NCBI GenBank assembly: GCA_026993525.1
Contig: JALWSS010000094.1
Span: 1 to 64,000, forward strand
From: Saprospiraceae bacterium
GTDB taxonomy: Bacteria; Bacteroidota; Bacteroidia; Chitinophagales; Saprospiraceae
DNA length: 64,000 nucleotides
Direction of reading: 5' to 3'
Shown here: positions 16,214-47,934 of the stretch, one piece after another
Position numbering within the stretch: position 1 is the stretch's first letter
Layout: each line of letters starts with the position of its first letter
Notes under the pieces: model-generated
The model's input: the letters and a program-made list of their open reading frames with translations, nothing else
The model's database searches: none
What the model was told of the DNA's origin: nothing
Position numbers and translations under genes: made by a program

Positions 16214-16240
16214 GTATTGGGGAGAGGTTGAGAGGGGTTG

Positions 16241-16517
16241 AGAGGAGTTTCCACATCAGGTTGCAACTTTCAGTTGCGACCTGAATTCAACATCCGGCAT
16301 TCTTCCTCTCACAGTGCCCACAGAGAACACGGTGAAAAAAAACTCTGTGGACTCAGTGGTCTCCGTGTGAGGCGATAAAAGTTTAGAGGAGTTTCCACAT
16401 CAGGTTGCAACTTTCAGTTGCGGCCTGAATTCAACATCCGGCATTCTTCCTCTCACAGTGCCCACAGAGAACACGGTGAAAAAAAACTCTGTGGACTCAG
16501 TGGTCTCCGTGTGAGGC
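16241..16517. repeat. 133-bp direct repeat, two copies
   Basis: Copies at 16241-16373 and 16385-16517 differ at one clear position (GCGACC versus GCGGCC) and are separated by 11 bp. Each contains an inverted-repeat core (CTGTGGACTC.., CCACAGAGAA..). GAGAGGGGTTGA-type repeats precede the first copy. No ORF is supported inside. Confidence 0.85.
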
Positions 16518-41116: not shown

Positions 41117-42928
41117 TCACCTCAGCAAGGTCACCTCTCCCCTTGCGCTTCGGCTGAAGAGCTGGCCCTCGTGCCAGGCGGTGTACACGGCGTGCCAGAT
41201 GTACACTTCAGAGGGAGCATCGCTGCCGCTCACCCTGCCGTCCCAGCCAACGGCGGGGTCGGTGCTGGTGAACACCTCCTGCCCCCAGCGATTGAAAACC
41301 CGCAGCCGGTAATCGGCAAAATAACACTGATAGACCGGCCCAAAGGTATCGTTGACGCCGTCGCCGTTGGGCGTGAAGGCATTGGGCACTTCAAACACAC
41401 AGGGGCACTTGCCATCCGGCACGTTGAAGATGACCTGCTGCGTGGTGCCGCAATGGTACGCCGTGGCCCGGTACTGCCCCGGCTCCGTCACGTGGAACAG
41501 GCTGTCGGTACTTCCGTCCTCCCAAACCACCGTACCCGTCGCGTGGGTGTATTTCAGGTCTATCTCAGCGCCCAGACAGATGAAGGTGTCTATGACGATG
41601 TCTGGGAGGGGCGGGCCGTAGTAGGTTTGGCAGAGGAGGGTTTGGGGGAAACTTTCTGCTATGTTGAAAATCGGCATTTCAATGGGCGTAACGATAGCTG
41701 ACACATCTTCCACCTGAGGAAAAGTATCTTCTTCTAAAAATATTTTTTTTGGGTTTAGACCCAAGGGGTCTGGGTCGGGTAATTGATCAAAACAATCGAC
41801 TTCAAAACCTGGACTAGTCTTATAAAGTTCGAGTCCACCCCTCCGGAACACAAATACCCCTCTTTCATCATCCAATGCCCTCGCTCCTAAAACCAATGGT
41901 GACCCTGCATCCAGATACACACTCTCCAACATATTCAATTCTTGGTCCCATTTGTAAATAACCGGATTGTCATTTTCAAATACCGGATCTATTTCGCCTA
42001 ACAAAATCAGTTCACCACTGGGAGCAAGTTGAAGGGAATTCTTTCGATTAGAACGAGATATTGTGATAAAAGTATGACCCAAATTTTCTCTATAATAAAA
42101 TGATTCACTTTGATCAGCGATGATTGTTCCGTATAAATCAATTTTAGCCAATTTATGACTAACTTGAAAATTTTCACAAATTACATAAATATTACTGTCA
42201 ACGAACAATGGTCTCGTATTTAGAAATCTGGATTTTTCGAATGGTACACCCTCTGTTCTCAATCTTCTCACCTTTTCAACTTGGCCGAGGCTGTCTAATA
42301 ATGTCAAATGCCTGTTTGTTATCAGGGCTGCATGATTAAAGCCGTAATCTATTGCAAAATGTGCTGTAATGTAGAATTGGACATCTATTAGACTCGTATA
42401 ATCAAATACATACTTTTTTGAAAAAATAACCTCACCAGATGGCGATAGGCGGACAATTACTGCAATATGGTTATTAAAGGTCTTATGGTCCAATGTTACT
42501 ATTTTCTCCCCGTCTTGCTTTATCTGTAAATAATTTGGAATTACGGGGATCCCCAAATCAACTTGAATCCCTTTTGCAAAATCCGAATTAAAAAGATTGA
42601 ATTCGATAATAAAAAATGAAGTTGACTGCCCAAAAAAGTTGCCCAATAAGTAAATTGTATCCCCTTCCCTTACATAGTCATGAATTTCCATTCGGGTAAG
42701 ACCGATTTGTTTACCTCCGATAAACAAACCGCAACTATCAACTTCAACAACCATAAAATTCCCTTCAATGTTTCGTAAAAACAAATTTAAACCTCCATTC
42801 TGCCCCTCTTCAATGAAGGTATAAAAGGAACCGAAGTTCAGGCCTTCATAATTGACAGAAAACTCTGACTGCCCTATTGAATCTATTGAAAGCGAAAAGC
42901 AAAAAAATAAGTATAAAATATACCTCAT
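41117..42928 (-). CDS. Secreted protein with gliding-type (type B) type IX sorting domain
   Basis: 603 aa. Signal peptide (YILYLFFCFSLSIDSIGQ). The central region (residues about 30-400) is a beta-rich, propeller-like repeat region of unknown function. The last 90 residues form the CHU_C / gliding motility-associated C-terminal domain (PNAFTPNGDGVNDTFGP, then LRVFNRWGQEVF and GWDGRVSG), the signal for type IX export. Base composition changes inside the gene: the C-terminal part (to about 41700) is GC-rich like its neighbours, the N-terminal two thirds are clearly AT-rich. Confidence 0.85.
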   Translation of the reverse strand: MRYILYLFFCFSLSIDSIGQSEFSVNYEGLNFGSFYTFIEEGQNGGLNLFLRNIEGNFMVVEVDSCGLFIGGKQIGLTRMEIHDYVREGDTIYLLGNFFGQSTSFFIIEFNLFNSDFAKGIQVDLGIPVIPNYLQIKQDGEKIVTLDHKTFNNHIAVIVRLSPSGEVIFSKKYVFDYTSLIDVQFYITAHFAIDYGFNHAALITNRHLTLLDSLGQVEKVRRLRTEGVPFEKSRFLNTRPLFVDSNIYVICENFQVSHKLAKIDLYGTIIADQSESFYYRENLGHTFITISRSNRKNSLQLAPSGELILLGEIDPVFENDNPVIYKWDQELNMLESVYLDAGSPLVLGARALDDERGVFVFRRGGLELYKTSPGFEVDCFDQLPDPDPLGLNPKKIFLEEDTFPQVEDVSAIVTPIEMPIFNIAESFPQTLLCQTYYGPPLPDIVIDTFICLGAEIDLKYTHATGTVVWEDGSTDSLFHVTEPGQYRATAYHCGTTQQVIFNVPDGKCPCVFEVPNAFTPNGDGVNDTFGPVYQCYFADYRLRVFNRWGQEVFTSTDPAVGWDGRVSGSDAPSEVYIWHAVYTAWHEGQLFSRSARGEVTLLR

Positions 42929-43144: not shown

Positions 43145-43741
43145 TTAAAAAGAGGGATCATTTGAATTCCCAAGGTAACAATACTCATCCAAAGCAAAAT
43201 ACTGCCTTTCGTCAATAACATCAACACCGGGAGGCGCATAAAAATAGAAATCTTGAGATTTAATATCCCCAGGATCTTGAGGAGCAGGAGGCTCACTCGT
43301 CCAATCACAAGTTACATTTACATGCACATATACACTATCGTAATTTCCTGGCAATATAGGACTTACTGAAAATTCCAAAATTCCCTGCGACTCCGTACAA
43401 GCATCAAACTCATACACATCTCCCTCATCCCACAGCACGCCGGCGGGGCCATTGCTTAATTGGCAATCAAAGTTGGGAAAAGTGTGGTAAACGCCCACTG
43501 CCCAAATCCAGAAGCTGCCCTGGGGCGGGTCGGCGTCCACTACGGTGGCCCGGCAATGGCAGCCGGGGGTAGGTTCAAACGCTTGTGTCACATTCTTTTC
43601 AAACAACGCCGGATTTTTCAGGATGTCGTAGGTAGTCGGAGGATCGGGTAGTTTCTGAAAGGCCGGAGCGGGGAATTCATCGGGTATTACGTCGTGGTCA
43701 CACCCTGTAAGCAGGGGTAGAATCAAGCATACAATCAGCAA
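43145..43741 (-). CDS. Lipoprotein with a heptamer tract at its 5' end
   Basis: 198 aa from a TTG at 43741 to a stop at 43145. Lipobox Cys14 (ILPLLTGC). The mature part has several Cys and aromatic residues and no recognised domain. With the TTG start the signal peptide has no basic n-region. An ATG at 43817 (MKTFNSSQFS..) would give a normal n-region but is out of frame by one nucleotide across seven TGAGAAC units; loss of one unit joins it in frame. The first third is GC-rich and the last part AT-rich. Confidence 0.6.
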   Translation of the reverse strand: MLIVCLILPLLTGCDHDVIPDEFPAPAFQKLPDPPTTYDILKNPALFEKNVTQAFEPTPGCHCRATVVDADPPQGSFWIWAVGVYHTFPNFDCQLSNGPAGVLWDEGDVYEFDACTESQGILEFSVSPILPGNYDSVYVHVNVTCDWTSEPPAPQDPGDIKSQDFYFYAPPGVDVIDERQYFALDEYCYLGNSNDPSF

Positions 43742-43745
43742 GAAA

Positions 43746-43801
43746 TGAGAAATGAGAACTGAGAACTGAGAACTGAGAACTGAGAACTGAGAACTGAGAA
43801 C
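43746..43801. repeat. Seven perfect TGAGAAC heptamers plus one degenerate
   Basis: Perfect units at 43753-43801 and one degenerate unit TGAGAAA at 43746-43752. On the minus strand they read AGTTCTC without stop codons, between a possible ATG (43817) and the lipoprotein signal peptide. Confidence 0.95.
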
Positions 43802-43939
43802 TGTTAAAAGTTTTCATTGTAAAAAGTTTTTGGTTAAGAGATGACCAAAGTTAAAAAAGCACCGGGAAATATTCGAAGAATATCGGGCAAAAAAAATTCC
43901 TTTTCCTTCCATTTGTATTGTTATGCTTAATTTACCCCC

Positions 43940-44536
43940 ATGCTCTTCCAAAATCCAGTCATCAACACCGAAGAATTGCCGGCTGTGGAGTCGGTGCAGT
44001 TTCAGCGCTTGTCGCCGGCGTGGCGGGTGGTTTCGTACATCAGCACGCTGATCTTTTTTGTTTTTCTTTCGATGGGCTGGGGCTTGTTTTATGTTTTGGC
44101 CGGGGACATTCCGGAGTGGATCACCATGGGTAGCCTGGCCGCCATTCTCGTTTTGTTTCTGCTCAGCATGGTGCTGGTGAGCAGCCGCTACCGCATGGCG
44201 GGCTATGCGCTGCGGGCGCACGACATCATGTACAAAAGGGGGGTGTTCTGGCACAGCACCACCATCATTCCCTACTCCCGCATCCAGCATGTGGAGATCA
44301 GCCAGGGGCCGGTGCAATCGGCATTTGGCATTGCCACGCTGCGCATCTACACCGCCGGCGGTTCCCGCAGCGATTTGAGTATTGAAGGGCTGGAGCGAAA
44401 AAGTGCCGAAGAAATCAAGGAATTGATCACCGGGAAGGTGGCTGCTGCGAAGGGTGCCGAATCTGAGCAGGATGTGGCCGCATTGCGCAGCGAAGAAGAA
44501 AAAGCCGAAGGCACGGATGAGCTGCCAACAGAGTAA
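43940..44536 (+). CDS. PH-domain (bPH2) membrane protein
   Basis: 198 aa. Two membrane helices (residues about 32-55 and 62-82) followed by a bacterial PH domain of the YdbS/YdbT type (YRMAGYALRAHDIMYKRGVFWHSTTIIPYSRIQHVEISQGP is split across the beginning of the domain; short motifs YKRGVFW and SRIQHVEI are diagnostic) and an acidic tail. The function of these proteins is not established. It converges with rimK, 6 bp apart. Confidence 0.85.
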   Translation: MLFQNPVINTEELPAVESVQFQRLSPAWRVVSYISTLIFFVFLSMGWGLFYVLAGDIPEWITMGSLAAILVLFLLSMVLVSSRYRMAGYALRAHDIMYKRGVFWHSTTIIPYSRIQHVEISQGPVQSAFGIATLRIYTAGGSRSDLSIEGLERKSAEEIKELITGKVAAAKGAESEQDVAALRSEEEKAEGTDELPTE

Positions 44537-46939: not shown

Positions 46940-47067
46940 AATGACGGCCGCATTGCGACGAAAGTCATTTGTTGGAAAAGAATGACAAACATCCTCGACA
47001 TTGGTCTGTGCATTGATTAGCTTTGCCCTGCGATACCAGAAACCGAAAAACCAAACCCACAAAAGCT

Positions 47068-47934
47068 ATGACCCCCAGGCAGTCCACCCTTCAGGGCACC
47101 CTCTTAAGCCGGCTGTTCAGACATCACCACCCCAATGCCTCTTCCGGTATTCAATTCTCTTTTTTTCATTTTTCATTTTTTATCGTCGCAATGGCGTGCT
47201 GCCTGCTGGCACCGGCACGGTCAATGGCCCAGGACACCCTGCTGTTCGAGGGCAAATGGAAATTGCCCGTTGTCATCGAAGAAGAAAACGAATACGAAGT
47301 GATCTACCGGAAGGCCGATTGGGTGAACAGCCCGCTGTACGTCATCGAGAAGCGCTTTATCACCGAAATCAACTATCTGGACACCCTGGAAGCGGCAAAA
47401 AAATTCAAGTCACGCCCTTTCGACGGCAGCAACATTGACCTGTGGGTGAAGCCCCTCGACAGCAACACGGTGATGCTTCGGGGCCGCCTGCTGCACATGG
47501 ACGACACCATGCTCATGGTGCGCCACCGGGGCAGTTTCATGGAGGGAAAGCCCAAAATCCGCTCTGAGTTGGTTTCCGTCATCACCTACGATCAGATCCA
47601 AAAGCTGGAATACCGCAAGCGCAGCAAAATGCGAAAGAGCGCTTTCATCGGTGCGGCCACAGGGCTCGTTGCCGGCACCCTGACGGGGCTGCTCCTTTTC
47701 AACGACACACCTGCCTGCGAAAACAGCGGCATCGATGGCAAACCTCCCTGCGACCCCAACCTGAAAAGCCCCCTGACACGCGTTGAGAAATCCCTCATCC
47801 TGGGGGCGGGTGCGGCGGCCGGTGGCTTTGTCACGGGCGGCATGATCGGCGGGGTGCGCATCAAATTCACCATCGGCGGCAACAAAGACCGGTACAACCA
47901 GGCCATTCCCCACATATTGCGGTCATTGAACTGA
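47068..47934 (+). CDS. Exported protein with glycine-zipper segment
   Basis: 288 aa starting MTPRQSTLQG. A long n-region is followed by a signal-peptide core FSFFHFSFFIVAMACC, encoded partly by TTTTTCA repeats, and cleavage near SMAQ. The mature part has a beta-rich domain (EYEVIYRKADWVN, DTMLMVRHRG) and two glycine-zipper stretches (GAATGLVAGTLTGLLLF and GAGAAAGGFVTGGMIGG) that may sit in or on a membrane. Family not recognised. The ATG at 47068 was preferred over a TTG at 47023. Confidence 0.6.
   Translation: MTPRQSTLQGTLLSRLFRHHHPNASSGIQFSFFHFSFFIVAMACCLLAPARSMAQDTLLFEGKWKLPVVIEEENEYEVIYRKADWVNSPLYVIEKRFITEINYLDTLEAAKKFKSRPFDGSNIDLWVKPLDSNTVMLRGRLLHMDDTMLMVRHRGSFMEGKPKIRSELVSVITYDQIQKLEYRKRSKMRKSAFIGAATGLVAGTLTGLLLFNDTPACENSGIDGKPPCDPNLKSPLTRVEKSLILGAGAAAGGFVTGGMIGGVRIKFTIGGNKDRYNQAIPHILRSLN

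Follow-up and report, generated by a model that had tools for sequence, protein, structure and literature searches.

The locus analysed here raises the question of whether a short tandem repeat that sits between the start codon and the signal peptide of a lipoprotein gene switches that gene on and off. Our analysis indicates that the gene is very likely a contingency (phase-variation) locus switched by repeat copy number, with the repeat very probably acting as the on/off switch because other lipoprotein genes of the family hold different frame-breaking repeats at that position. The window is the whole stretch of DNA that was analysed, 64,000 nucleotides on contig C94 of a genome (G000) comprising 5.16 Mb in 230 contigs, whose closest named relative is the Saprospirales metagenome-assembled genome NAT133. 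The features at and downstream of the array are these:

43815 to 43817, minus strand: ATG start codon, 1 nt out of the lipoprotein frame
43754 to 43802, minus strand: seven perfect AGTTCTC heptamers, stop-free in all three coding-strand frames
43741 to 43753, minus strand: two decayed array units (ATTTCTC ATTTCTT) running into the hydrophobic region, for 9.0 copies in all at 98% match
43145 to 43741, minus strand: lipoprotein frame, 198 codons from TTG 43741, with an LTGC lipobox (Cys codon 43702-43700)
41117 to 42928, minus strand: downstream partner, a 603-aa secreted protein with a CHU_C type IX secretion signal

An earlier note on this stretch, made from sequence alone, had claimed seven perfect heptamers after ATG 43817 (TGAGAAC, which is AGTTCTC on the minus strand), a distance of 76 nt from that ATG to TTG 43741 that is off by one and mended by one unit fewer or two more, and a TTG-started signal peptide without a basic n-region. 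All of these held, the first exactly (with the two decayed units besides), the second by coordinates (76 nt, remainder 1), and the third in that the frame read from the TTG has a hydrophobic stretch and no basic residue ahead of its LTGC lipobox. The distance from the ATG to the lipobox Cys codon, 115 nt, likewise leaves a remainder of 1, and the frame that the ATG opens stops after 39 codons; on paper, removal of one unit gives MKTFNSSQFSVLSSQFSVLISHFLLIVCLILPLLTGC. The downstream partner has an ordinary signal peptide of its own and no array. By comparison with shuffled sequence the array is not a chance product, its period-7 identity running for ~44 bases where 20 shuffled versions of the window gave 12 at most, and the 5.16 Mb genome contains no other copy of (AGTTCTC)3. 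Short-read assemblies may miscount repeats, though at 49-63 bp the array falls short of the 127-base overlap seen between contigs of this assembly.

Ahead of the start codon lie two further elements, the first of which is positioned by script and has not been tested for activity:

43846 to 43853, minus strand: TAACTTTG, putative promoter element matching the Bacteroidota -7 motif TAnnTTTG
43832 to 43843, minus strand: CATCTCTTAACC, a leader motif common to the window gene and a second lipoprotein family (described below)

TAnnTTTG is the -7 promoter consensus of Bacteroidota, and matches to TAnnTT[TC]G occur 36-39 nt ahead of the ATG in 9 of 23 tabulated leaders. The sequence CATCTYTTAACC, counted once in 0.98 Mb of the window genome and once in 0.78 Mb of a sister genome (G004), lies 26-29 nt ahead of the start codon not only of the window gene but also of several homologs.

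The start region is conserved in the only close ortholog found among 398 genomes of the family, which belongs to a different species (G004, PAAY01000083.1) and has 74-75% identity. Leader and ATG together (29 bases, TTAACCAAAAACTTTTTACAATGAAAACT) are identical in the alignment of the two genes, and the signal peptide and body 3' of the array are conserved too, whereas the heptamers differ, with seven perfect units each of AGTTCTC in the window and CTCGTTA in the ortholog. The ortholog's ATG lies 101 nt from its Cys codon (remainder 2, as against 1 in the window), so that both assembled alleles are OFF, at different offsets. Comparison of the two genes gave dN 0.19 and dS 1.3 (dN/dS ~0.15 over 180 codons), showing purifying selection on the protein body and therefore a protein that is maintained; a second pair, G000:C46 and G004:C67, gave dN 0.07 and dS 0.64. 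These genes are thus retained, although every assembled allele whose start can be read is out of frame.

Genes that are read through such arrays exist in the same genome. Searching for CTC-periodic heptamers close behind ATGA recovered two other genes, A and B, preceded by ATGAAAACAC and (CTCCGTT)n. Lipoprotein A (G000:C95) is in frame through its array (MKTPSVLRSPFSVLRSLLILCLIGAVFSCKKS), and B (G000:C125, with its ortholog G004:C10), a secreted protease of ~1,200 aa, has a trypsin-like domain and weakly matches a T9SS sorting tail; its reading frame runs on from ATGAAAACAC across (CTCCGTT)n without a shift. There is no ATG between array and signal peptide proper in either of the two B genes, and because B is in frame without another plausible start, its translation must pass through the array; neither A nor B has a usable start other than the one that precedes its in-frame array. 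Between the ATG and the end of the array, the B gene of one species has 69 nt and that of the other 48 nt, the difference of 21 nt being three unit lengths, and homologs of B in other genera have no array there and an ordinary signal peptide. A third copy, a paralog of lipoprotein A (G000:C19:93676, L044), is out of frame with a decayed array and an internal TAA, which fits what is expected of a switch stuck OFF. CTC-periodic arrays behind ATGA were not generally enriched in the genome (57 matches versus 49 in the reversed control), and the signal is therefore specific to these genes. We also observed that C95 and C125 (L107 and L108) start with an identical 127 bases (leader, ATG and array) before continuing into the unrelated genes A and B, a length that may reflect an assembly overlap at a 5' cassette common to both contigs.

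Homologs of A, collected by single-sequence and then profile search, make up the second lipoprotein family, in which a lipoprotein gene with a leader similar to that of the window gene is followed by a gene for a secreted protein. No homology was detected between the window lipoprotein and this family (hhalign probability 4%), and we therefore keep them as two families with a common layout. Every array in the second family lies between start codon and lipobox, and the units, of 2, 4, 5, 7, 8 or 10 bp, mostly differ from gene to gene:

G004:C67 and G000:C167: unit ACCGCTT
G002:C33: unit ACCTTTT
G002:C615: unit TTTCGCC
G007:C59: unit CACCATT
G010:C343: unit CTTCA
G011:C561: unit TCACG
G259: unit TTTTC
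G001:C56: unit TCAC
G011:C90: unit CTCA
G116: unit TTCT
G205 (G205:C91): unit CT
G153: unit CTTTTATG
G006 and G011:C351: unit CTTCACTGCG

The sole unit that is a multiple of three is a short 6-bp repeat in a weak homolog, G277. Most array-bearing homologs have a further gene, usually signal-peptide-like at its start, within ~220 nt downstream, and the partners next to the window gene and to the lipoprotein gene on C95 were both confirmed to have CHU_C. As a separate observation, the paralogous lipoproteins on C46 and C167 of the window genome (L206 and L221) have 126 identical bases spanning array and signal peptide, with similar N-termini followed by strongly different bodies, in a pattern resembling segment exchange.

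Pooling the B genes with both lipoprotein families gave 20 readable array-bearing starts, only 6 of which are in frame, as compared with all 8 array-free homologs (Fisher p=0.0019), whose in-frame ATG occupies the same place as the start of the array-bearing genes. The Fisher value is only indicative because some of the 20 starts are orthologs or recent paralogs. The 6/20 share is indistinguishable from the expected one third, and the OFF genes show offsets of both +1 and +2. With 14 of the 20 arrays out of frame, the ON state is directly visible in only 6 genes.

How unusual such an array is depends on the genomic background, which we surveyed in 0.98 Mb of the window genome and 0.78 Mb of its sister G004 rather than in whole genomes. 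The former held 209 tandem arrays (7, 8 and 10 bp) in 985 kb, with 203 of them intergenic though the DNA is ~80% coding, and arrays are therefore normally kept out of genes; in the latter, 77 of 77 arrays in 783 kb were classed as intergenic. The few arrays behind a start codon count as intergenic here because the simple gene caller used sets the start downstream of the array, and arrays of this kind were singled out separately from the census. Since intergenic arrays of 7-8 bp abound in both genomes and dominate their background, an array near a gene start is unremarkable there by itself and unit length is weak evidence. The window locus is an exception to this background, with a conserved start codon ahead of its array and a unit unique in the genome. 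Unit length carries more weight in G001 and G006, since long perfect tracts are scarce there: 240 kb of the former had 8 and 160 kb of the latter had none, and the sole 4-bp tract among the 8 is the one in the lipoprotein gene.

Several side observations were also made. Arrays reach ~210 per Mb in the window genome, nearly all between genes, with varied units such as AGGGATG, ACACCCT and AACTGAGG (window 1-64000, loci L017-L056 and L176-L195). An octamer array of 4.4 copies near the N-terminal part of a TonB-dependent-receptor-like ORF (L249:9328-9362, G001:C56) is a possible further switch, and a heptamer array (L033:17350-17370, G000:C17) abuts a glycosyltransferase-like ORF with TTG as its first start. 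Elsewhere in the window, TTTTTCA x2.7 occupies 47150-47181 in the signal-peptide region of ORF 47023-47934, whose ATG 47135 is out of frame while an ATG further upstream is in frame, and a 144-bp segment at 16237-16517 is tandemly duplicated with 98% identity.

An ordinary intergenic repeat was the first idea for the window array, given the many arrays around it, and was ruled out for this site because the ATG is conserved, the unit occurs only here and the homologs speak against it. The rival that survives best is a more specific form of it, namely that the array lies in a 5' untranslated region and the lipoprotein is translated from TTG 43741. In its favor are the 203 of 209 intergenic arrays, many just upstream of genes, and the glycosyltransferase-like ORF whose first start beside an array is likewise a TTG. 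Against it, the TTG is not conserved (its position reads TCG in the ortholog and CTG in A and B) whereas the ATG and leader are perfectly so, a signal peptide begun at the TTG would have no basic residue, A and B offer no plausible start after the array, and homologs without an array use an in-frame ATG at the equivalent place; we thus consider this rival unlikely. Less tenable still is a decaying pseudogene with the out-of-frame array as its lesion, for which one can cite the out-of-frame ATG in both species and the nonsense codon that the lipoprotein A paralog on C19 does bear, but which is made very unlikely by the dN/dS of ~0.15 over 180 codons, a frame that is open in both species and many intact relatives with the same architecture. 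Programmed frameshifting, or ribosome or polymerase slippage in the repeat without DNA change, might account for the 14 of 20 array-bearing starts that are out of frame in the assemblies, but is all but excluded because offsets of +1 and +2, units of varied sequence and length and some in-frame genes mean that no fixed frameshift signal can serve all.

What the switch would control remains poorly defined. The window lipoprotein had no Pfam or NCBIfam match, the second family gave just weak single-member matches to unrelated Pfam models, none convincing, and no solved structure matching these lipoproteins by sequence was found. A two-sequence AlphaFold model consisted mostly of strands (mean pLDDT 60, pTM 0.66), and this model of modest confidence had no significant fold match in the PDB. 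Surface exposure of the product is inferred from the LTGC lipobox and the neighbouring CHU_C type IX protein, the location itself being untested.

Known repeat-switched genes offer the closest comparison. In Neisseria, copy number of a CTCTT repeat in the leader-peptide coding part sets the frame of the opa surface protein gene family (PMC3960869), and in Helicobacter pylori, CT repeats in the signal-peptide coding sequence of oipA switch frame (PMC10564699). Loci of this opa/oipA type have a non-triplet tandem unit between start codon and signal-peptide core that is readable in all three coding-strand frames, both of which hold for the window array, and show in- and out-of-frame alleles among relatives with array-free relatives in frame, which is also met provided that "relatives" are defined by gene layout, the two lipoprotein families having no detectable homology. 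As in opa, a non-triplet repeat in the leader-coding part recurs across a group of putative surface protein genes; as in oipA, short repeats in the signal-peptide region would switch the frame, and the homolog on G205:C91 also has CT. Membership by homology of the product to Neisseria Opa or Helicobacter Hop proteins fails as far as tested: opa belongs to a different protein family and phylum, and no sequence relation was found between the oipA outer-membrane protein and the Saprospiraceae lipoproteins. Moreover, opa uses one pentamer and oipA one repeat type, whereas the Saprospiraceae genes have different units, orthologs included, and copy-number change has been measured in Neisseria but is merely inferred here. 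The heptanucleotide tracts at hmw1A and hmw2A among the simple sequence repeat loci of Haemophilus influenzae (PMC2651432) are candidate phase switches as well, though those lie in promoters and the window tract lies inside a reading frame. TAACTGA heptamer arrays, by contrast, are scattered through the genomes of Beggiatoaceae and also occur in Cyanobacteria and Bacteroidetes (PMC4679880), mostly in intergenic DNA upstream of start codons with one unit dominant. The other arrays of the window genome are generally of this intergenic sort; the window array, downstream of a conserved ATG and with a unit unique in the genome, is not, and does not lie outside coding sequence upstream of a start as that type requires, A and B being read through theirs. 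Finally, no inverted repeats of ≥10 bp were found in 43600-44100, and the invertible-promoter type of phase variation seen in Bacteroidota is thus not met.

Under the phase-variation reading, promoter and short leader would yield an mRNA with ATG 43817 as its start codon, and the 7-base repeat, open in three frames, would separate this ATG from the hydrophobic part of the signal peptide. Gain or loss of a unit, presumably by slipped-strand mispairing in replication, would shift the frame by one or two bases, such that in one frame of three the ribosome would pass from the repeat into an ordinary lipoprotein signal and make the protein (ON), while in the other two it would miss the lipoprotein frame altogether (OFF); the window as assembled would carry an OFF allele. 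The earlier note had proposed just such a contingency locus captured OFF, and that part is supported by the conserved ATG and leader of the ortholog, the purifying selection and the repeats of the second family. Its ON allele with a normal lipoprotein signal is so far a frame restored on paper, and slipped-strand mispairing stays inferred, with variable copy number within a population not shown. Change of copy number and switching at a high rate are inferred as well; no polymorphism is visible because there is one assembly per species, without reads, strains or expression data.

On/off switching of surface proteins by repeats has been described chiefly in host-adapted pathogens, and phase variation as familiar from Bacteroidota works by DNA inversion. 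In the literature searched, we found nothing relevant on repeat-based phase variation in Saprospiraceae or Bacteroidota. By analogy, the mode of action is very likely opa- or oipA-like, in new protein families of uncultured Saprospirales, and what sets these loci apart from the known cases is a repeat that keeps its site but not its unit, which changes even from one ortholog to the other. A bolder reading, for which the case is as yet balanced, is that at least two lipoprotein families and at least one secreted protease, which would have acquired the leader, together make up a multi-gene repertoire of on/off switches, with selection on where the switch sits and repeated replacement of the repeat unit; if so, nearly every gene would have its own switch, distinct in sequence and unit length. 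It is possible that the common 5' cassette also passes between genes by recombination in the arrays. Because the unit differs while its position is kept, selection on switching itself, as opposed to selection on a particular repeat, becomes testable, and the pattern suggests that these bacteria may face a pressure, perhaps from phages or grazers, that rewards variation of the cell surface.
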